Under the pieces are notes generated by a model. That model was not told the DNA's origin, did not search any database, and saw nothing but the letters and a program-made list of their open reading frames with translations. Position numbers and translations under genes: made by a program. 38,766 nucleotides of DNA. Origin: Pedobacter sp. (GTDB taxonomy: Bacteria; Bacteroidota; Bacteroidia; Sphingobacteriales; Sphingobacteriaceae). The stretch lies in assembly GCA_014377775.1 (NCBI GenBank), contig JACMOW010000170.1:1-38766 (forward strand). Direction: 5' to 3'. Positions 3 through 38,470 of this stretch are shown here, in pieces (within the stretch, counting starts at the first letter, position 1; the number at the start of each line of letters is the position of its first letter).

Positions 3-671
3 AAAAAGAAAGACCCCTTTACGAAGGAGAAAATACACATGAAGTTGGATAGCAATACCTATATTTTTATTGATGCATTTGACAATAAAACGAATGTGGG
101 CTATCGCTTTACATTAGATAAATTTAAAGGTGATGTGCTTCAAAAGAAATTAATGGCGCAATCGATTAAGTGGGACTCGTTAAAAAGAAAATGGACATTG
201 ACAGATTATTCTGTAAGAAACATTAACGGTTTAAAGGAAAAAATGATCTTCGAAAGTTCAGTGCCTAAAGATACCACTTTAGACATGAGACCTGATGATT
301 TTTCGGCCTATGAGAATATTTTTGAAAGCTTAAGTAATAAAGAATTATCGGATAAAATTAAGAAAGAAAAAATTAGAGGCGCTGGCGTAATGAACGATCT
401 TTTGTTCGAACAATACAAGCGTTGGCTGCAGCCTTTATCCGCCTTTGTTTTAACTTTAATAGGTGTTGCACTCTCTTCTAGAAAGGTGAGAGGTGGCGTA
501 GGTTTACCATTGGGTATAGGAATTTTTTTAAGCTTTACCTACATTGTATTTAATCAATTTGCTAAAATGTTTTCGACAAAGGGAGGGCTACCTCCATTAA
601 TTGCGATTCTTATACCCACTATCTTTTTTGGACTTTTAGGCTTCTACTTACTTAAAAGAGCGCCTAAATAA
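3..671 (+). CDS. LptF/LptG-family permease, 3' part
   Basis: The reading frame is open to the left edge of the window, so this is the C-terminal part of a gene that starts outside it; the ATG at 39 is internal. The visible protein has a beta-rich periplasmic segment (codons 39 to about 420), then a basic linker and three hydrophobic helices near the end, ending in a short basic tail. This is the arrangement of the YjgP/YjgQ (LptF/LptG) permeases, which extract lipopolysaccharide from the inner membrane with the LptB ATPase. Family members are about 360 residues, so roughly 220 are present. Its stop codon overlaps the next ATG by one base (TAATG), suggesting translational coupling. Which of LptF or LptG it is cannot be decided. 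Confidence 0.85.
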   Translation, partial: KKKDPFTKEKIHMKLDSNTYIFIDAFDNKTNVGYRFTLDKFKGDVLQKKLMAQSIKWDSLKRKWTLTDYSVRNINGLKEKMIFESSVPKDTTLDMRPDDFSAYENIFESLSNKELSDKIKKEKIRGAGVMNDLLFEQYKRWLQPLSAFVLTLIGVALSSRKVRGGVGLPLGIGIFLSFTYIVFNQFAKMFSTKGGLPPLIAILIPTIFFGLLGFYLLKRAPK

Positions 672-1871: not shown

Positions 1872-4688
1872 ATGATCTTTATTAAATCATATATAAAATT
1901 GAAAATCAACATATTAACTTTTTTAATATTAAGCTTAACTTCATTAAGTACTTTTGGGCAGTTATTTGATACTCGGCAAAACCCACTTAGTGTAAAATGG
2001 AGAGAGATAAATATTTCAGGTTTTAAAATTATCTACCCTACAGAGTTCGAAAAAGAGGCACAACGAATGAGTAACACACTACCTATAATTTACCCTTTAG
2101 TTGGCCGCACATTAAACCAAAAAAAAACCACCATTCCAATTGTACTTCAAAACCGCGGAACTGTAGCCAACGGCTTTGTTCAATTGGCTCCAAAAAAATC
2201 TGAATTTTACACTACCCCACCGCAGCAATTCGACAGTCAAGACTGGTTAAATAATTTAGCTGTTCATGAACTCAGACACGTTGCACAATTCGACAAATTA
2301 ACAGGTGGCAAAGCCTATCCTTTTCCTGAAGAAATTTATTTTGCCTATTTGGGCATAAGCGTTCCAACTTGGTTTTATGAGGGAGACGCCGTGAGTACCG
2401 AAACGTCATTAACTCATGCTGGTCGTGGAAGGCAACCATCTTGGATCATGCCTTTTAGAACCTCCCTCTTAAATGGAAAAAATTTCTCTTACAGCAAAGC
2501 CTACTTTGGCTCGAGTAAAGACCAAACGCCAGGTTATTATCAACTCGGTTATTTGTTGACTTCGCAACTGAGAAAAGAATTTGGAAAAAATATTGTCGAT
2601 AGCTTATTTGAAGATATTCAAAAAAGACCATTTAGATTATATCCATTTTCGAGAAGCCTAAAAAAAATTACTGGGAAAAATACCAATCAATGGTACAAGC
2701 ACGGTGTTGAACAATTTAAAAAAGAATGGCTAGTGCAAGATGAAGCAAATAAAAGCGAAGCGTATACCCCACTCAATCAAAAAGCTAAATTTGCGACCAA
2801 CTATTTTTTACCAACCGAATACAAAAACAATCAAATTTTAACTTTAAAGCACAGCAAATCCTTACCCCCTACTTTTGTATTAATAGATCAAAATAAAAAT
2901 GAAAAAAAGCTATTCGCAATTGCCTATCAAGAACAACCTTGGTTTAGTTATGCCAACTCTATTTTAATCTGGGACGAAATTAGATTTGATCCTAGGTATA
3001 AACAACGTAGCTACAGCGTAATTTGCAGTTACAATTTTATTACGAGGCATAAAACACAACTTACCTTTAAAACAAGGCTATTCTCTCCTAGCCTTTCGGC
3101 TGATGGAAAAAAGTTAATAGCAGTTCAAATTGACTTGAGTAATGAGGCTAATCTTGTTGCACTCGACCCACAAACCGGAAAAATCATCAATACCTACTCA
3201 AATGAAAAAGGTCTTATGCTGCAAAACCCAGCTTTAAATGCAGATGGGTCTAAGTTGGCTTGGGTGAGTGTAAGTGAACTCGGAAAGGCTTTATGGTTAA
3301 AAGAAGAAAACAAGTCGCCACGTAAAATTATCAACGAAACACAGCAGCAACTAAGCAGACCAGTATTTAATGGCGAGCAAATCATTTTTAACGCCCATTT
3401 AAACGGCATAGACAATCTTTTCAGCATAGACCCTCAAAATTCGAAAATAATTGCCCTGAGCGCCTCTAAATATGGGGCTTTTAATGCAAGTTTATCTGAA
3501 GACGGTAAAAATATTGTGTTTAACGACTTCAATTTAATGGGACACGATATTGTGAAAGCTCCAATTAATGCTAAAGAAATTCAAGACAATGGTTTTATTT
3601 ATTTTGGGAAAGAAGCCGAAGCGCAAGAGCAAATAGACAATGTTTTCAACGAAATCCCTAGTCAAGTTCAAGAATCGAAGCCTTATAGCCCCCTAACTCA
3701 TCTTTTTAATTTTCATAGCTTAAGCCCAAATATTGACGACTCCGATCGACCAGGCCTACAATTAAAGTCGAACGATTTGTTAAGCACATTTGATTTTTAT
3801 ACAGGCTTGGTGTATGATAGCGATTTGCGAAAACTAGAATACAATGCCGGCTTCACCTATAAAGCCCTATATCCCATTCTTAGTGCAGTGTATCGAAATC
3901 GGCCACGAACGGCTTTCTATAAATTAAAAAATGCAACACAACTCACTCAGGCAGAATGGAGGGAAAATTATATAAACATCAAAGCAAGTTTACCATTAAG
4001 TATAAACAGCTTTAATCATAATTATAGCTTTATTGCTGATATTGGAACTAGTTATACCCAAAGAAATTTAACTGAAAGCGATGCCAAAGTTATCAATAGT
4101 ACCGTGCTTTTCCCAATGAACTATCGGGTTGGCTTTACCCACACCCTACGTACTGCTGAGCGAGATTTAGCCCCAAAATTTGCACAAACTTTTAGTTTAA
4201 AATATTTCCATCAACCTTTTGATAATCGATATAAAGGGAAATTATTCGCATTTGAAAGCGGTTTATATTTTCCTGGGTTTGCCAGAAACCATACTTTTTC
4301 AATGGGTTTCAATTATCAAAATGCTAATGGCGTACTGAATGCGAATACCGAGATTTCTACAGTTTATGGCTATGCACAAATAAAAGCAAATAGCAAATTG
4401 CAAAACTCTTTATTATTAAATTATAGGTTCCCAATTGCCTTTCCAGATGCAGAAATCGGCCCTTTGGCTTATATAAGGAGTATTCGCGGCGGTTTCTTTA
4501 GCCATTATGAAAACATCATAAAGCAAACTAATTTAGTCCAACCTAAAACTTTTGGCTTCGAATTGCGTAGTAGTATGAACTTACTGCGCTATCAACCTGT
4601 AGTTGATTTAGGAGCAAGATTAATTTTTGTAAACCAAACTTATAAGCAAAACCCTATCTTAGAGGTAATTTTTAACTATAGCTTTTAA
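1872..4688 (+). CDS. Secreted HExxH / beta-propeller / barrel protein
   Basis: This 938-residue protein has a hydrophobic N-terminal segment (about residues 12-29) ending in FGQ, consistent with a signal peptide. Residues 132-136 read HELRH, a zincin HExxH motif, and WFYEGDA (167-173) follows 30 residues later with Glu170 as a plausible third zinc ligand; this is the gluzincin, peptidase MA-like pattern. Residues of about 300-590 contain repeated LSADGKKLIA, LNADGSKLAW and LSEDGKNIVF segments typical of TolB/PD40 propeller blades. The last 330 residues are rich in alternating hydrophobic strands and end in Phe, as in outer-membrane barrels. I infer an outer-membrane-anchored, surface or periplasmic metallopeptidase-like protein; activity and substrate are unknown. 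It is followed four bases later by a LapA-like gene. Confidence 0.75.
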   Translation: MIFIKSYIKLKINILTFLILSLTSLSTFGQLFDTRQNPLSVKWREINISGFKIIYPTEFEKEAQRMSNTLPIIYPLVGRTLNQKKTTIPIVLQNRGTVANGFVQLAPKKSEFYTTPPQQFDSQDWLNNLAVHELRHVAQFDKLTGGKAYPFPEEIYFAYLGISVPTWFYEGDAVSTETSLTHAGRGRQPSWIMPFRTSLLNGKNFSYSKAYFGSSKDQTPGYYQLGYLLTSQLRKEFGKNIVDSLFEDIQKRPFRLYPFSRSLKKITGKNTNQWYKHGVEQFKKEWLVQDEANKSEAYTPLNQKAKFATNYFLPTEYKNNQILTLKHSKSLPPTFVLIDQNKNEKKLFAIAYQEQPWFSYANSILIWDEIRFDPRYKQRSYSVICSYNFITRHKTQLTFKTRLFSPSLSADGKKLIAVQIDLSNEANLVALDPQTGKIINTYSNEKGLMLQNPALNADGSKLAWVSVSELGKALWLKEENKSPRKIINETQQQLSRPVFNGEQIIFNAHLNGIDNLFSIDPQNSKIIALSASKYGAFNASLSEDGKNIVFNDFNLMGHDIVKAPINAKEIQDNGFIYFGKEAEAQEQIDNVFNEIPSQVQESKPYSPLTHLFNFHSLSPNIDDSDRPGLQLKSNDLLSTFDFYTGLVYDSDLRKLEYNAGFTYKALYPILSAVYRNRPRTAFYKLKNATQLTQAEWRENYINIKASLPLSINSFNHNYSFIADIGTSYTQRNLTESDAKVINSTVLFPMNYRVGFTHTLRTAERDLAPKFAQTFSLKYFHQPFDNRYKGKLFAFESGLYFPGFARNHTFSMGFNYQNANGVLNANTEISTVYGYAQIKANSKLQNSLLLNYRFPIAFPDAEIGPLAYIRSIRGGFFSHYENIIKQTNLVQPKTFGFELRSSMNLLRYQPVVDLGARLIFVNQTYKQNPILEVIFNYSF

Positions 4689-4692
4689 ACCC

Positions 4693-4977
4693 ATGAAACC
4701 CAAAACCATACTTATTCTTATTCTTACCGTTCTGCTAACTGTATTTTTAACTGTAAATAGTGATGCGGTAGCTTTCGATTTCCTTATCGGCGAGCCTGTT
4801 TCTGTTTCAAAATTAGTGGTGATTGGAATTTGCGTCCTAATTGGATTTATACTAGGCTTTATTGTTGGTCGCCCTCGCAAAACGGTAAGCAGTTACGATA
4901 CCGAGATAGAAAAGGGATATCCTGTTAATGAAAATAAATCGACACTCAGCGATGAAGATAGAGATTACATTAATTGA
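4693..4977 (+). CDS. LapA (DUF1049)-like membrane protein
   Basis: This 94-residue protein has two membrane helices (about residues 4-22 and 40-63) and a polar C-terminal tail. The NSDAVAFDFLIGEPVSVSKLVV segment between the helices, followed by a glycine-rich second helix ending in GRPRK, matches the LapA/DUF1049 pattern of small inner-membrane proteins. In Enterobacteria LapA works with LapB in controlling lipopolysaccharide assembly; whether that role holds here is unknown. It starts four bases after the large secreted protein and ends three bases before the converging metZ stop codon. An ORF on the opposite strand is a shadow. Confidence 0.75.
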   Translation: MKPKTILILILTVLLTVFLTVNSDAVAFDFLIGEPVSVSKLVVIGICVLIGFILGFIVGRPRKTVSSYDTEIEKGYPVNENKSTLSDEDRDYIN

Positions 4978-9328: not shown

Positions 9329-12283
9329 ATGCAAGGTAAAGGTTTTATTAAATTTATGGCAATACTATTAGGTATTGTCTGTCTGTATTCACTCTCGTTT
9401 AATCTAGTTACTTATAATGTAGAAAAAAACGCCAAAGAGTTTGCCAAAGGCGATTTGGTTAAGGAAAAAGCTTATTTAGATTCGATGGCCACCATACCGG
9501 TATATCCCGGACTTGGTTTAACGTATCAACAAGTAAAAGGAAAAGAGATTAACCTTGGTCTTGATTTAAAAGGTGGAATGAACGTAACGATGGAGATTTC
9601 TTTAGCAGAATTAACCAAATCGTTAGCAAACAATCCAACCGATGCCAACTTTAACCAAGCATTAACAAGCGCACAAGCGCAAATGAATGCAGGCGGAAAA
9701 GATTTTATCGCCTTATTTGTTAGCGAATATGAAAAGCTTAATCCAACAGGAAAGCTTGCCGATTTTTTCTCTACTCAAGATAACGCACAACAACTAAAAG
9801 CAAACGCCAGCAACGATGATGTAAGAAGTTTCTTAACTGCAGAAGGAAATAGTGCAATTGATCGTTCATTTACCATCTTGCGTAGTCGTATTGATGGTTT
9901 TGGCGTAGTTAGTCCGAACATGCAGAAACAAGAAGGTTCGAATAGAATTTTCATTGAGATGCCAGGTGTTCAAGACAAAGAACGTATCCGTAAATTATTA
10001 CAAGGTTCTGCAGAATTACAATTTTGGCAGGTTTATCAAAACCAAGAAGTTGTTGGGATTTTAGAAAACATTAACAAAACGTTAGCCGTTACCCTTAAAG
10101 ACACGACTAATGCTGCTGTAAAAACTGTTGATACTACTAAAAAAGATGGTAAGTTGGCAGGTTTAACAAACACTAAAAAAGAAAAAGATACAATTGCTGC
10201 TAAAAAAGAAGCCCTCAAAAGCAATCCTTTATTTAGCATTTTAAATATTCCTACTTATCAATCAGAAAACGGGCAGCCTGCTCTACGCCCCGGACCAGTT
10301 GTGGCTATGGCTTTTCAAAAAGATACCGCTAAAGTAAATGCTTTATTGGCTAGATCAGAAATTAAGCCACTTATACCAGGTACCATGAAATTTATGTGGG
10401 GCCTTAAACCAACGGATGGAAAGATTTTTGAATTGTATGCCATTAAAGTAACTTCACTAGATGGAAGACCAGATTTAGGTGGTGATGCTGTCTCTAATGC
10501 AATGCAAAGTTACGATCAGAAAAACCAACCAGAGGTAACCATGTACATGACCAGTGATGGTGCCGCTAAATGGAAAAAAATTACCGCAGAAGCATCTGCC
10601 GATCCCCAAAATAAAAAAGCAATTGCAATTGTATTAGATAATACGGTGTATTCTGCTCCTACAGTTCAGAATGAAATTCCAAATGGTGTATCATCTATCT
10701 CTGGTAGTTTCTCACTCGAAGACACCAAAGATTTAGCGAATATTTTAAAAGCTGGTAAATTACCTGCCCCTGCGCGTATCGTTTCCGATTTCGTTGTTGG
10801 TCCGTCGTTAGGGCAAGAAGCAATAGACAGTGGTTTATCATCATTTGTAATCGCCTTTATCGTGATTTTAGCATTTATGGCGCTATATTATAATAAAGCA
10901 GGATGGGTTGCCAATTTAGCGTTGGTAATTAACGTATTCTTTATTATGGGTGTACTAGCTGCATTTGGAGCTGTACTAACGTTACCTGGTATTGCTGGTA
11001 TTGTGTTAACCATCGGCTTATCGGTAGATGCGAACATTTTGATTTTTGAACGTGTACGAGAAGAACTTGCACATGGTAAAAGCACAGCTATAGCGATTAA
11101 AGAAGGTTTTAAACATGCTATGTCGTCAATTATCGACTCGAATGTTACCATCTTTATCTTAGGTATAATTTTATTTGTTTTCGGTACAGGCCCGGTACAA
11201 GGCTTTGCAACTACATTATGTGTAGGTATTGCAACTTCTTTATTTGCTGCTGTGTTGATTTCACGTTTAGTATTTGAAGGCTTGTTGGCTAAAAAGGCTA
11301 ATATATCATTCGATAACAGTGTAACTAGAAACGCATTTAAAAATATTGCCTTCAACTTTGTTGGACATAGAAAACTATATTATGGCATATCTACTGCTAT
11401 TATTGTTTTAGGTATTGGTTTTTATATTAAAAATGGTGGTTTAAATCTGGGTATCGACTTTAAAGGAGGTAGAACATATATTGTTCACTTCGATAAACCG
11501 ATGAATACAGAAGATGTTAAAAGCAAGTTAGAAGTTGTTTTCGGACCAGAAGAAGAAACACAAGTTGTAACCGCAGGTTCAGCAAGTGAATTAAAAATTA
11601 CAACTACCTACCATATTTTAGATCAGGCAGAAAACGCTGATAAATTGGTAGAAGAAGTGCTAAATAAAGGTTTAGCAACTACGGGCGCAAAATATACGCA
11701 TGAAGGTGGTGCAAAAGTTACGCCTATTGTTGCGAGTGATATTGTTTATGGCGCTTACGGAGCTATTTTATTCTCTTGTATTGTGATGTTTATTTACATC
11801 TTAGTTCGTTTCAGAAAATGGCAATATGGCCTAGGTGCAGTTATTGCATTATTTCACGATGTACTTCTTGTGTTATCATTCTATACCATATTAGATGGTA
11901 TGTTGCCTTTCTCATTAGAAATTGGCCAAGATTTTATCGCTGCAATTTTAACGGTAATGGGCTATACCATGACAGAAACTGTAGTTGTATTTGACCGTAT
12001 CCGCGAAAAATTAGGAGAGAAGGGTAAAGTAGATGTTTATGGCGAAGAGCGCGACACATTAATTAATTTCGCCTTAAACAGTACATTAAGTCGTACTATT
12101 TTAACTTCATTAACCGTATTCTTTGTACTCTTAGTTATCTTCATCTTTGGAGGCGATAGTATCAGAGGATTTATATTTGCCTTATTGATCGGTCGTATCA
12201 TTGGTACCTATTCATCACTTTGTATCTCTACGCCTATTGTAATTGATTTATCGAAAAGAGAAGCGACTAAAGCAGTTAAATAA
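9329..12283 (+). CDS. secDF: Fused protein translocase SecDF
   Basis: This 984-residue protein joins SecD and SecF in one chain, the usual form in Bacteroidota. It uses the proton gradient to help proteins leave the SecYEG channel on the outer side of the membrane. The first membrane helix is at about 8-27; GLDLKGG at 77-83 opens the SecD P1 domain. SecD helices follow from about 500 with TIGLSVDANILIFERVREEL, which carries the key charged residues. SecF begins at about 670, with GIDFKGG at 708-714 and helices containing MTETVVVFDRIREKLGE. A Lys/Thr-rich linker near 270-300 lies within the large extracytoplasmic region of SecD. yajC, encoding its partner, lies at 27161. A strong terminator follows. 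Confidence 0.97.
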   Translation: MQGKGFIKFMAILLGIVCLYSLSFNLVTYNVEKNAKEFAKGDLVKEKAYLDSMATIPVYPGLGLTYQQVKGKEINLGLDLKGGMNVTMEISLAELTKSLANNPTDANFNQALTSAQAQMNAGGKDFIALFVSEYEKLNPTGKLADFFSTQDNAQQLKANASNDDVRSFLTAEGNSAIDRSFTILRSRIDGFGVVSPNMQKQEGSNRIFIEMPGVQDKERIRKLLQGSAELQFWQVYQNQEVVGILENINKTLAVTLKDTTNAAVKTVDTTKKDGKLAGLTNTKKEKDTIAAKKEALKSNPLFSILNIPTYQSENGQPALRPGPVVAMAFQKDTAKVNALLARSEIKPLIPGTMKFMWGLKPTDGKIFELYAIKVTSLDGRPDLGGDAVSNAMQSYDQKNQPEVTMYMTSDGAAKWKKITAEASADPQNKKAIAIVLDNTVYSAPTVQNEIPNGVSSISGSFSLEDTKDLANILKAGKLPAPARIVSDFVVGPSLGQEAIDSGLSSFVIAFIVILAFMALYYNKAGWVANLALVINVFFIMGVLAAFGAVLTLPGIAGIVLTIGLSVDANILIFERVREELAHGKSTAIAIKEGFKHAMSSIIDSNVTIFILGIILFVFGTGPVQGFATTLCVGIATSLFAAVLISRLVFEGLLAKKANISFDNSVTRNAFKNIAFNFVGHRKLYYGISTAIIVLGIGFYIKNGGLNLGIDFKGGRTYIVHFDKPMNTEDVKSKLEVVFGPEEETQVVTAGSASELKITTTYHILDQAENADKLVEEVLNKGLATTGAKYTHEGGAKVTPIVASDIVYGAYGAILFSCIVMFIYILVRFRKWQYGLGAVIALFHDVLLVLSFYTILDGMLPFSLEIGQDFIAAILTVMGYTMTETVVVFDRIREKLGEKGKVDVYGEERDTLINFALNSTLSRTILTSLTVFFVLLVIFIFGGDSIRGFIFALLIGRIIGTYSSLCISTPIVIDLSKREATKAVK

Positions 12284-32457: not shown

Positions 32458-32885
32458 ATGAAAATACTTAAAAAGGAAAAAACTGATGTCAAGCTTACTC
32501 AAATTCTTACAGAAATGGCCTTCAACACACTCGTGTAAATTCGCGAACGCCCAGACGGTTAATCAGAAAAAATATGGATGGGGTCAGACTACTCCACGAG
32601 AAATAGCTATGGTATTGGTCTTAATAAGAGATGGAAAGATGATAAGTGAGGCAGCAGCTGAAGCCCTCTCTGAAATTCCGCCTTATGTAAAAGTAGCCTC
32701 TAAATCTGGCGCCGTTAATGCTTCCAGATCTGAAGTGGTTCTTGTAAATGCACCACATGGAGATTATATGGATTCACAGCAACGAAGATTTTGTACTTAT
32801 CCGAAAATTAAGTAAAACATTATGGAACCATTTCGAGACAAAATCTAAATGGGAGCCAGCTAAGGGTATAGAAAAGTATAATTAA
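32458..32885 (+). pseudogene. Relic of class-A beta-lactamase-like serine hydrolase
   Basis: Family-like segments occur in order but across changing frames: TDVKLTQILTEM (from 32458), QHTRVNSRTP after a shift near 32518, YGWGQTTPREIAMVL after a second shift near 32555, IPPYVKVASKSGAVNASRSEVVLV, which contains the KSG (third-box) motif, and after a third shift near 32767, HSNEDFVLIRKLSKTLWNHF to the stop at 32883. In-frame loss near 32660 removes about a dozen residues, and some residues of the strand after GDY are missing. The N-terminal half with the SxxK nucleophile and SDN motif is absent. It cannot encode an active enzyme. The 109-codon open frame at 32486-32815 is part of the relic, not a gene. 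Confidence 0.75.
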
Positions 32886-36046: not shown

Positions 36047-38470
36047 ATGAAAAAAATCATACTCAACCTCTTTTTAATTGCATCTAGTATTAGTGCTTTT
36101 GCTCAAGACGCAATAAATTATCAAATGCCACCAAAAGCAATTGTCGATTTGTTATTGGCCAAACCAACGCCTAGTGTAAGTATTGATAGCAAGGCCGAAT
36201 GGATGTTATTTAGCGAACGCAATTCCTATCCTTCGGTTGAAGAACTAGCCATGCCCGAATACCGTATCGCAGGTATGCGCATTAACCCAAATAATTATTC
36301 GCCTAGCAGGCAAACCTATATCAATAGTTTTAGTTTGAAAAATATAAAAACGGGTAAAACGATTGCGGTAACAGGTTTACCTACTCCATTATACGCAAGC
36401 GGAGGAAGTTGGAGCCCCAACCAAACTAAAATTGCGGTTATCCACACTTCACAAAGCAGAGTAGATTTATACGTTATTACTGTAGCAACTGGCAAAGCAG
36501 TAAAAATGAATAAGCAACCGCTAAATGCCATTATGGGAGGTGGTGCAACTTGGGTGGATGAAAATACCCTCCTTTATCGCATTGCAACAAAACTTGCAAG
36601 TGCAGCTCCAGCTCGTCCGTTAGCACCAAAAGGACCAACCATACAACAAAGTTTAGGTAAAGCTTCGCCAAGTGCAACTTTACAAGATTTAATTAAATCG
36701 CCGTACGACGAGCAATTATTTGATTTTTTTGCCACTTCGCAATTGATTCAAAATAAAGGAGGCATAGAAACACCTATTGGTAAACCAGCCATTTACAGCG
36801 GTGTAAGTTTGTCGCCCGATAAAAACTACATCATGACACGTACCATTAAAAAACCTTTCTCCTACCTAGTTTCTGCAGGTGGGTTTCCTTCTACGGTTAA
36901 CATTACCGACAGAATGGGGAAAGTAATTAAACTAGTGGCCGATTTACCTTCAACTGAAGTTAGACCATCGGGTAATGATAATGTGCAAAATGTACCTCGT
37001 GGTTTTGACTGGAGAGATGATGAAGCTGCAACTATTATTTGGACAGTAGCCTTAGACAGTGGATTGATTAAGAAAAATGTTGAGTATCATGATGCTGTTT
37101 TGGCATTATCGGCTCCATTTACAGCTTCACCTAAAGAGCTCTTAAAAACTAAAATGCGTTTTGGAGGAATGAGCTGGGGCAATTCAACTTTTGCATTGGT
37201 TAGAGAAAGCTCAAGAACCAAACAAACGTCGAAAATAAGCAGTTTTAATCCAAGTACAGGTATTGTAGAAACTTTATACGAGCTAAGTACTAATGATGCC
37301 TATAATAATCCTGGAAACCCAGTAACGGAGAAAAATAAATACGGACGTGAGGTAATTTTAACAACCGACAATGGCACCAAACTATTGCTAAACAATACAA
37401 CAGGTGCTTCTGCCAAAGGTGATCTGCCTTTTTTAGCCAAATTTGATTTAGCCACCAAAAAATCAGAAATTTTATGGCGTGCACAACCAGGTACTTATGA
37501 AATGGTTACCGAGGTGCTTGACCCTCAAAAACTGGTTTTATTAACCCGTAAAGAAAGTCAGAAAGATGCGCCTAATTACTTCATCAAAAACTTAATCCTG
37601 CGTATGGCCGATCAGCAAATTACCACCTTTACCAATCCTTACCCACAAATGGAAGGAGTTAAAAAAGAAAAAATCTCTTATAAACGTGCAGATGGTATCG
37701 ATTTAACAGGCGATTTATATTTACCTAAAGGATACGATAAAGAAAAAGATGGACCTTTGCCTGTTTTAATATGGGCATACCCTCGCGAATTTAACTCGGC
37801 TACGGATGCTGCACAAATTAGAGGTTCGCAAGATAAATTTACCACCATTAGTTCTGGCGGACCGTTATTTTTTGTGACGCAAGGTTATGCGGTTTTAGAT
37901 AATGCCGAAATGCCGATTGTTGCAAAAGATGATAAAAAACCAAACGATACTTTTGTGGAGCAATTAAAGTTAAATGCCGAAGCAGCGATCAATAAACTTT
38001 CTGAAATGGGAGTTGGCGATAGAAACCGGATGGCAGTTGGTGGACACAGTTATGGCGCATTTATGACAGCCAATTTACTCGCACACACCAATTTGTTTAA
38101 GGCAGGTATTGCGCGTAGTGGTGCTTATAACAGAACACTTACCCCTTTTGGTTTCCAAAACGAAGACCGTACCTATTGGCAAGCCCCACAACTTTATTAC
38201 GAAATGAGTCCGTTTAGTTACGCTGATAAAATTAAAACGCCGATCTTGTTAATTCATGGCGAAATGGATGATAATCAGGGTACTTTCCCTATTAACAGCG
38301 AGCGTTTATTTAATGCGATAAAAGGTCATGGTGGCACCACTCGTTTTGTTTATTTACCTTATGAAGCGCATGGCTATAGAGCCAAAGAAAACATCTTACA
38401 CATGCTGTGGGAGATGAATACTTGGTTAAATACGTATGTGAAGGGTGCAAAATTAACGGTTGCGAAGTAG
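36047..38470 (+). CDS. Secreted S9-family serine peptidase
   Basis: The 807-residue protein has a signal peptide (about residues 1-19, ending SISAFAQ). A long N-terminal region of beta-propeller-like repeats (about 20-560) precedes the alpha/beta-hydrolase domain. The catalytic triad is Ser668 in GGHSYGAFM, Asp741 in HGEMDDNQG and His775 in YEAHGY. GEMDDNQGTFPINSERL resembles the glutamyl-endopeptidase (S9D) branch rather than prolyl oligopeptidase or DPP4. It probably degrades peptides in the periplasm or at the surface. It is transcribed alone. Confidence 0.9.
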   Translation: MKKIILNLFLIASSISAFAQDAINYQMPPKAIVDLLLAKPTPSVSIDSKAEWMLFSERNSYPSVEELAMPEYRIAGMRINPNNYSPSRQTYINSFSLKNIKTGKTIAVTGLPTPLYASGGSWSPNQTKIAVIHTSQSRVDLYVITVATGKAVKMNKQPLNAIMGGGATWVDENTLLYRIATKLASAAPARPLAPKGPTIQQSLGKASPSATLQDLIKSPYDEQLFDFFATSQLIQNKGGIETPIGKPAIYSGVSLSPDKNYIMTRTIKKPFSYLVSAGGFPSTVNITDRMGKVIKLVADLPSTEVRPSGNDNVQNVPRGFDWRDDEAATIIWTVALDSGLIKKNVEYHDAVLALSAPFTASPKELLKTKMRFGGMSWGNSTFALVRESSRTKQTSKISSFNPSTGIVETLYELSTNDAYNNPGNPVTEKNKYGREVILTTDNGTKLLLNNTTGASAKGDLPFLAKFDLATKKSEILWRAQPGTYEMVTEVLDPQKLVLLTRKESQKDAPNYFIKNLILRMADQQITTFTNPYPQMEGVKKEKISYKRADGIDLTGDLYLPKGYDKEKDGPLPVLIWAYPREFNSATDAAQIRGSQDKFTTISSGGPLFFVTQGYAVLDNAEMPIVAKDDKKPNDTFVEQLKLNAEAAINKLSEMGVGDRNRMAVGGHSYGAFMTANLLAHTNLFKAGIARSGAYNRTLTPFGFQNEDRTYWQAPQLYYEMSPFSYADKIKTPILLIHGEMDDNQGTFPINSERLFNAIKGHGGTTRFVYLPYEAHGYRAKENILHMLWEMNTWLNTYVKGAKLTVAK

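Follow-up and report, generated by a model that had tools for sequence, protein, structure and literature searches.

A Pedobacter protein that joins a predicted zinc peptidase, a TolB-like propeller and an Omp85-type outer-membrane barrel in one chain

We have analyzed a gene at positions 1872-4688 (forward strand) of a 38,766-nucleotide stretch of Pedobacter sp. DNA (assembly GCA_014377775.1, contig JACMOW010000170.1), hereafter called the window. The computation supports a POTRA-less Omp85-type barrel that carries a complete gluzincin site and, on its N-terminal side, a TolB-like propeller. We are highly confident that peptidase, propeller and barrel lie in one chain. With moderate confidence in the reading as a whole, we propose that the protein acts as a zinc protease in the periplasm, where an Omp85 barrel put to new use would keep it fixed to the outer membrane. 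The parts of the gene, all on the forward strand, are as follows.

1872-4688, forward: whole gene, an intact open reading frame (ORF) of 938 amino acids (aa) comprising signal peptide, gluzincin peptidase, TolB-like propeller and Omp85 barrel
1872-1958, forward: residues 1-29, likely type I signal peptide with a putative cleavage site, called from the sequence
1959-2759, forward: residues 30-296, predicted gluzincin (Peptidase MA-like) domain, from hhalign comparison with PF13485 and a profile match to the collagenase ColG
2265-2279, forward: residues 132-136, HELRH, two predicted zinc His and the general-base Glu133, in helix 125-144
2379-2390, forward: residues 170-173, EGDA, predicted third zinc ligand Glu170, plus Ala173
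2538-2540, forward: Tyr223, likely transition-state Tyr, its role deduced from alignment to ColG Tyr607
2769-3581, forward: residues ~300-570, TolB-like beta-propeller of 23 strands (309-564) in about six blades
3684-4685, forward: residues 605-938, predicted 16-stranded Omp85-type outer-membrane barrel with C-terminal Phe, from a separate model, Foldseek and VIA
4362-4373, forward: residues 831-834, VYGY, at the place of the Omp85 (V/I)RG(F/Y) loop-6 motif by alignment, without the Arg

The full-length AlphaFold2 model has a predicted local distance difference test (pLDDT) score of 89.5 and a predicted template modelling (pTM) score of 0.87. An earlier note on this DNA had proposed the three-part anatomy, with a barrel as a possibility, and the model, a match to TIGR02800 and fold comparisons bear it out. 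The motifs on which that note relied are present in the translation, namely HELRH at 132-136, WFYEGDA with Glu170, the PD40-like phrases LSADGKKL (408-415), LNADGSKL (455-462) and LSEDGKNI (541-548), and a C-terminal Phe (...NYSF); its spacing of 30 residues was in error, as 34 positions separate His136 from Glu170. HELRH lies in a helix of the model, not in a beta strand, the propeller has about six blades, and the C-terminal region is no soluble domain, since it forms 16 barrel strands. The signal peptide has no lipobox Cys, and Gln30 is kept in 89 of 92 aligned family ORFs. The ratio of nonsynonymous to synonymous substitution rates (dN/dS) over the entire gene is 0.06-0.11 against four orthologues, with dS at or near saturation. 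The source genome is 3.17 Mb long, in 339 contigs, and 88% complete.

The family was examined through several alignment sets. The 92-ORF alignment, which includes the window ORF, was drawn from 119 loci, of which 6 had no match at an E value of 1e-3, with removal of duplicates and of ORFs shorter than 850 aa. Set A6 consists of the window protein and 46 proteins from named records (47 sequences), and set A7 of the peptidase parts of A6. Set A4 is a peptidase profile of the wider family with 44 members, 7 of which match PF13485 (Peptidase_MA_2) themselves; because A4 includes such members, A7 serves as the independent test of similarity to PF13485.

Several lines of evidence point to a gluzincin domain. 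Using hhalign, A7 aligned to 30 PF13485 loci with a probability of 94.9 (E 4.6e-8) and to 24 M48 loci with a probability of 0.8, and the corresponding values for A4 were 99.8 and 23.0; M48 compared with PF13485 itself, as a control, gave 26.3. A profile search of the PDB with E values up to 10 returned only four matches, all of them clostridial collagenases (E 9.1e-4 to 6.5e-3). The best of these alignments, to ColG, pairs H132, H136, E170, A173 and Y223 with His523, His527, Glu555, Ala558 and Tyr607 (ColG residue numbers were counted from the HExxH within the printed alignment). In the clostridial collagenases, the third zinc ligand is described as a Glu 28-30 residues downstream of HExxH on a "gluzincin helix", the Ala three residues past it forms a floor beneath the zinc, and the second shell holds a Gln following HExxH and a Glu following the third ligand (PMC3711286). 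ColG Tyr607 is reported to contact active-site inhibitors (PMC9574867). In the AlphaFold2 model Glu170 falls within helix 166-180, in agreement with the gluzincin pattern, in which the HExxH helix is followed by another that bears the Glu ligand. The counterpart of the second-shell Gln in the ColG alignment is Q139, found in 72 of 92 ORFs.

Conservation supports the predicted site. H132, E133, H136, P165, E170, G171, A173, Y223 and G226 are invariant in all 92 ORFs, and the six zinc-site residues among them (H132, E133, H136, E170, A173, Y223) are also intact in 47/47 A6 proteins. This invariance extends to proteins that are only ~16% identical overall to that of the window and, as judged from these alignments, is beyond chance. 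The site of His132, His136 and Glu170 put forward in the earlier note is thereby supported, both by its identity in 92/92 ORFs and by its profile alignment to the ColG site. We regard the gluzincin zinc site as complete, and zinc binding and peptidase activity as predicted, and we call the fold from the sequence, the secondary structure of the full-chain model and the ColG match. A tree of the peptidase domain (78 rows) separates the branch of the window protein from PF13485-type proteins with split support of 100/99.

Resemblance to known peptidases is limited to the domain. Profile comparison indicates that the domain is the same as Peptidase_MA_2, and 7/44 wider members match that model at E 0.1, some above cut-off, whereas the window's closer set has no matching member at E 0.01. 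ColG (family M9) shares the HExxH, the downstream Glu, the Ala at +3, the Gln three past the second His and the Tyr607 counterpart; it differs in its spacing (28, against 34 here) and in its second-shell Glu, which is displaced here. Membership of the M9 collagenases was rejected, as the catalytic region alone aligns, at a weak E of 9.1e-4, and the remaining chain is propeller and barrel. Membership of M48, the family of Escherichia coli BepA, was rejected on the hhalign probabilities given above for A7 and A4.

The propeller is TolB-like in fold. TIGR02800, the TolB propeller model, matches the window protein at E 1.4e-8 with 34.1 bits; its equivalog cut-off is 343 bits, and identity as a TolB equivalog was therefore rejected. 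The family profile matched TolB structures in the PDB at 4.3e-32, and VIA superposed the propeller on TolB with a Z of 22.2 and a root-mean-square deviation of 3.1 over 242 aligned residues. Fold searches with the full chain returned propellers, and because this domain filled the list, the barrel was folded on its own.

Folded alone, the barrel reached a pLDDT of 92.3 and a pTM of 0.84 with 16 strands of at least 8 residues, and the full-chain model likewise has 16 strands of at least 7 residues (614-936). When the barrel alone was searched against the PDB by profile, the one match, at E 0.1, was a flavoprotein. All 50 rows listed by Foldseek are Omp85 entries (best E 5.5e-6). In VIA, ranks 1-41 are Omp85 entries (BamA, SAM, TOC, TamA, FhaC and CdiB; chain identity within the SAM and TOC entries was assigned by entry titles) with Z from 17.1 to 14.0, and the first barrel of another kind is Fiu at Z 13.9, a margin of ~3 Z units at the top and nil at the tail. 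The possible barrel of the earlier note can thus be narrowed, through Foldseek, VIA and hhalign, to a barrel of the Omp85 superfamily. On these models the C-terminal domain is a 16-stranded barrel of Omp85 fold, for which the sequence evidence is moderate and the structural evidence stronger. POTRA gave no match at E 1 in the window protein, and residues 30-570 are occupied by peptidase and propeller. Some Omp85 subfamilies and architectures lack a POTRA (PMC4104836), so that its absence does not exclude membership of Omp85.

A number of observations weigh against the reading of a tethered zinc protease on an Omp85 barrel. Pfam and NCBIfam name no peptidase domain in the window protein, none of the 47 A6 proteins matches PF13485 at E 0.01, and neither the window protein by Pfam (for peptidase or Omp85) nor any of the 47 A6 proteins (for Omp85) has a match; five genes of the source genome match Omp85, and the window gene is none of these. 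The spacing of 34 from HExxH to Glu exceeds the 28-30 described for clostridial collagenases (PMC3711286). The position four past the ligand, the second-shell Glu of collagenases, is Val here (82/92); a Glu seven past the ligand (E177) is kept in 84/92, and the four members of the other branch that were read retain the Glu at ligand+4 (EGxAE). For the barrel, the Foldseek TM-scores are modest (0.39-0.53 by query length). With hhalign, the 44-member family matched Omp85 (28 of 34 loci usable) at a probability of 97.3 (E 1.9e-11), with 0.2 for PorP and 0.6 for Toluene_X as controls, but this value leans on distant members, 4/44 of which match PF01103; A6 alone reached 20.7 (controls 0.3 and 1.5), and since the control barrels PorP and Toluene_X match each other at 67.3, such barrel-to-barrel scores are to be read with care. 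A conserved gene partner hinting at a substrate was not found in the loci examined.

Part of the fusion can already be seen with existing domain models. ORFs L322, L325 and L327, from other genomes, match PF13485, PF07676 and PF01103 in that order, each above its curated cut-off and all three in one ORF, and this three-Pfam fusion was found in 3/4 relatives scanned. The fourth is a paralogue in the window's own genome (G000:C27, L320:1362-4478, reverse strand), a protein of 1039 aa with HELVH...EGMAEY, PD40 repeats and IRGYE. It resembles the window protein in length and domain order, and the best BLASTP segment between the two, at 23% over 159 aa, falls within the propeller. The paralogue scores 29.3 bits with Peptidase_MA_2 (cut-off 32.4), has no PF01103 match reported at 1e-5, and groups with the PF13485-type proteins in the peptidase tree, where its branch is long and uncertainly placed. 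Next to it is an ORF of 818 aa that, on visual reading, resembles a class A penicillin-binding protein.

The peptidase domain is widespread in the Bacteroidota genomes sampled. A single-sequence search found relatives in 37/59 genomes, the window's own genome counted, that is in 34/35 other genomes of the same genus (one as a fragment) and in 2/23 others; phylum-wide, the same type of search found relatives in 106/296 genomes. The nearest ORF found shares 79% with the window protein. The A4 profile matches 66/99 sampled Bacteroidota genomes and 50/58 genera, and a single genome can have as many as six matches; among the matches listed, the frames are mostly 930-1170 aa long, and part of them were checked for propeller and barrel. 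The PF13485 matches G061:C1:2965151-2965711 and G066:C1:2788755-2789315 each sit in an open frame of 1530 aa, which exceeds most of the other listed frames by ~400 aa and may include an extra domain. The named records, the best 80 of 501 confirmed matches, come from Pedobacter, Nubsella, Daejeonella, Sphingobacterium, Olivibacter, Parapedobacter, Desertivirga and Cytophagales genera, and from bins assigned to Bacteroidales (one), Calditrichaceae (two) and Spirochaetes (one). On the 5.6-kb contig of the Spirochaetes bin (L188), the gene adjoins a Cys/Met pyridoxal phosphate enzyme, of a family that also flanks the gene in the window; this contig is possibly mis-binned, Bacteroidota-like DNA.

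The (V/I)RG(F/Y) motif of loop 6 is a hallmark of Omp85 proteins. A loop of this kind was found in 25/28 reference Omp85 barrels and 0/27 control barrels, and in the hhalign alignment the GY of the window protein's VYGY coincides with that of the RGY found in BamA-type barrels. The loop-6 Arg (column 832) occurs in 35/92 family members: 0/32 same-genus rows (all Tyr; one further row of that set has Asn), 20/27 in the next set and 15/32 in the most distant. A6 divides into two sides: that of the window, which comprises Pedobacter, Nubsella, Daejeonella, Sphingobacterium, Olivibacter, Parapedobacter, Desertivirga and some bins, lacks the Arg in 29/29 rows, and it is present in 17/18 rows of the other side (Cytophagales and the Calditrichaceae, Spirochaetes and Bacteroidales bins). 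In three rows from another genus of the same taxonomic family, the column reads R, Y and K. By these alignments, loss of the Arg is not clean at the family level, and the barrel hallmark varies within the family whereas the zinc site never does. Because the motif is variable and retained by many members, assignment to the Omp85 superfamily rests on the fold. The variability of the Arg elsewhere also means that its absence is no proof of a lost insertase function, a further point against the tether reading.

Alternatively, the protein might be an assembly factor or translocase with a protease in cis, in which the barrel inserts or exports proteins like BamA, TamA or FhaC, with the propeller in the role of a fused BamB and the peptidase processing or removing the cargo. 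The Omp85 fold found by Foldseek and VIA and the RG retained beyond the window's side are in keeping with such a factor; the missing POTRA, the loop-6 Arg lost throughout the window's side, the lack of a linked cargo gene in the loci examined and the five other Omp85 matches in the same genome make it unlikely.

Prior literature covers the architecture in part. Ten Omp85 subfamilies were named by Heinz and Lithgow in 2014, among them "WD40-Omp85", for which TolB was the nearest propeller and a role like that of BamA-BamB was guessed (PMC4104836). The window protein agrees with that description in having a TolB-like propeller N-terminal to an Omp85 barrel, and differs in its peptidase, as the main text of that paper contains none of the terms "HExxH", "zinc", "PF13485" and "peptidase" (PMC4104836). 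We infer that our family and the WD40-Omp85 sequences are the same. PF00149 is a phosphoesterase family. It is this model that is cited for a separate "Metallo" class of Omp85 (PMC4104836). More recently, Hanson et al. (2024) stated that the metalloprotease, WD40-like and patatin-like subfamilies of Omp85 "have not been well characterized" (PMC11116518). The earlier note's implication that the architecture is new must accordingly be narrowed, since propeller plus barrel had already received a name in 2014; its statement that the role is not described agrees with our search of open-licence PubMed Central (PMC) papers, in which no functional work on the three-part family was found, which is not proof of absence. 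Of two papers on the Bacteroidota beta-barrel assembly machinery (BAM), the available text of one (PMC12578637) has no occurrence of "metallo", "zinc", "peptidase", "WD40", "TolB" or "Omp85", and that of the other (PMC12611786) none of "peptidase", "propeller", "zinc", "metallo", "WD40" or "TolB". BamI, described as a lipoprotein with a six-bladed propeller (PMC12578637), was considered and rejected as the window protein.

A close counterpart is PlpD, whose enzyme domain, like that of the window protein, is N-terminal to an Omp85 barrel and was found to be periplasmic; it differs in having a patatin-like lipase domain, a POTRA and a homodimeric state, in place of a zinc peptidase and propeller (PMC11116518). 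All Omp85 proteins studied before PlpD are said to promote assembly or translocation (PMC11116518). By showing that an Omp85 barrel can carry an enzyme in the periplasm, PlpD supports the tethered-protease reading. Under that reading, the protein would be exported by Sec and its barrel then assembled by BAM, and peptidase and propeller would hang in the periplasm beneath the barrel, like the POTRAs of BamA or the patatin domain of PlpD; this placement is suggested by analogy with Omp85 topology and PlpD. Zinc would be held by His132, His136 and Glu170, water activated by Glu133 and the transition state steadied by Tyr223. The propeller would dock a substrate or an envelope partner, and the protease would trim or degrade outer-membrane or periplasmic proteins near the membrane. 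BepA, a periplasmic zinc peptidase that acts on an outer-membrane protein at BAM, would be similar in its manner of working only, being of M48 and not a barrel protein; the enzyme proposed here would be anchored in cis. Catalysis, the substrate and the trimming or clearance of envelope proteins are put forward here as proposed rather than observed properties. Because the loop-6 Arg is gone, the barrel in the window's lineage may be mainly an anchor and scaffold.

Two other readings seem improbable. In the first, peptidase and propeller would cross the barrel and act extracellularly on foreign or self polymers, as was first proposed for PlpD. Clostridial collagenases, the sole solved-structure matches of the peptidase profile, are secreted enzymes, and the several copies per genome would also suit a surface protease; against it, ~570 folded residues would have to traverse a 16-stranded barrel, and the enzyme domain of PlpD proved periplasmic (PMC11116518). 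In the second, to which we likewise assign a slim chance, the gluzincin would be a cell-wall enzyme that cleaves the stem peptides of peptidoglycan or the links between lipoprotein and wall, and the propeller would bind a partner that is Pal-like or part of the wall. The propeller is nearest to TolB, whose complexes with Pal are solved, and the same-genome paralogue has the penicillin-binding-protein-like neighbor; however, the TolB similarity is at the level of fold, the neighbor argument holds for the paralogue only, and Pfam reports no wall-binding domain in the window protein. That the HExxH is a relic or a structural metal site in a protein that is no peptidase is very improbable given six site residues identical in 92/92 ORFs down to ~16% identity, even though no biochemical test of any member was found in the open-licence PMC literature.

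The neighboring genes are lineage-limited. A LapA-like small membrane protein of 94 aa (4693-4977, forward) starts four bases past the gene's stop codon and matches PF06305 (LapA_dom) with 24.7 bits, under the cut-off of 28. Upstream are an EamA-like transporter and an LptF/G-like permease; the permease match (window 39-671) spans only the C-terminal part of its profile, because the gene is truncated where the contig begins. The LapA-like gene is directly downstream in 47/76 named-record loci with a called next gene, all of Pedobacter/Daejeonella/Olivibacter/Desertivirga type and within L120-L184; in loci L060-L119 genes shorter than 100 aa were uncalled, so that a LapA-like gene would escape notice there. 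Relatives of the LptF/G-like, EamA-like and LapA-like genes occur at 57, 53 and 47 of 134 loci, with a single LptF/G-like gene (L093) as the exception to their Pedobacter/Daejeonella/Olivibacter-type restriction. In the loci examined from other lineages, neighbors are common to small groups only, such as the five loci that share a lipoyl E2 and a proteasome-like gene, and the neighborhoods of ten sampled loci are mutually unrelated. A conserved neighborhood was therefore rejected as a guide to function, the earlier argument from LapA adjacency to an envelope role is weak in view of the sub-cut-off score and restricted occurrence, and the LapA neighbor as a sign of a lipopolysaccharide role was rejected as weak.

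Elsewhere in the window, a SecDF fusion holds SecD and SecF domains within a single 984-aa ORF (9329-12283). A 109-aa ORF after a DUF3276 gene (32486-32815) weakly matches the end of the Beta-lactamase2 model (22.2 bits, cut-off 22), which may be a fragment or noise. At the opposite end (36047-38470) lies a further peptidase, an 807-aa prolyl oligopeptidase of family S9, part of which also resembles a propeller. In the Pfam scan, the DUF3909, Gmad1 and Histone_HNS matches were all below cut-off.

A wider proposal, which we offer only tentatively and consider rather doubtful, is that Bacteroidota have a phylum-wide set of outer-membrane-anchored proteases in which an Omp85 barrel swapped its POTRAs for a gluzincin and a TolB-like propeller, and that the Pedobacter/Sphingobacterium lineage turned the barrel from insertase to anchor; the variability of the loop-6 Arg lowers its likelihood. 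The closer set gives cause for caution in annotation, as two of its three domains have Pfam models that match 0/47 of the proteins. If this wider proposal is true, such proteins would be an outer-membrane counterpart to the inner-membrane quality-control proteases, with barrel, docking and proteolysis on one chain. A large class of barrels bearing a complete zinc-protease site would illustrate the reuse of the Omp85 scaffold, and could name the missing outer-membrane quality-control proteases of Bacteroidota.

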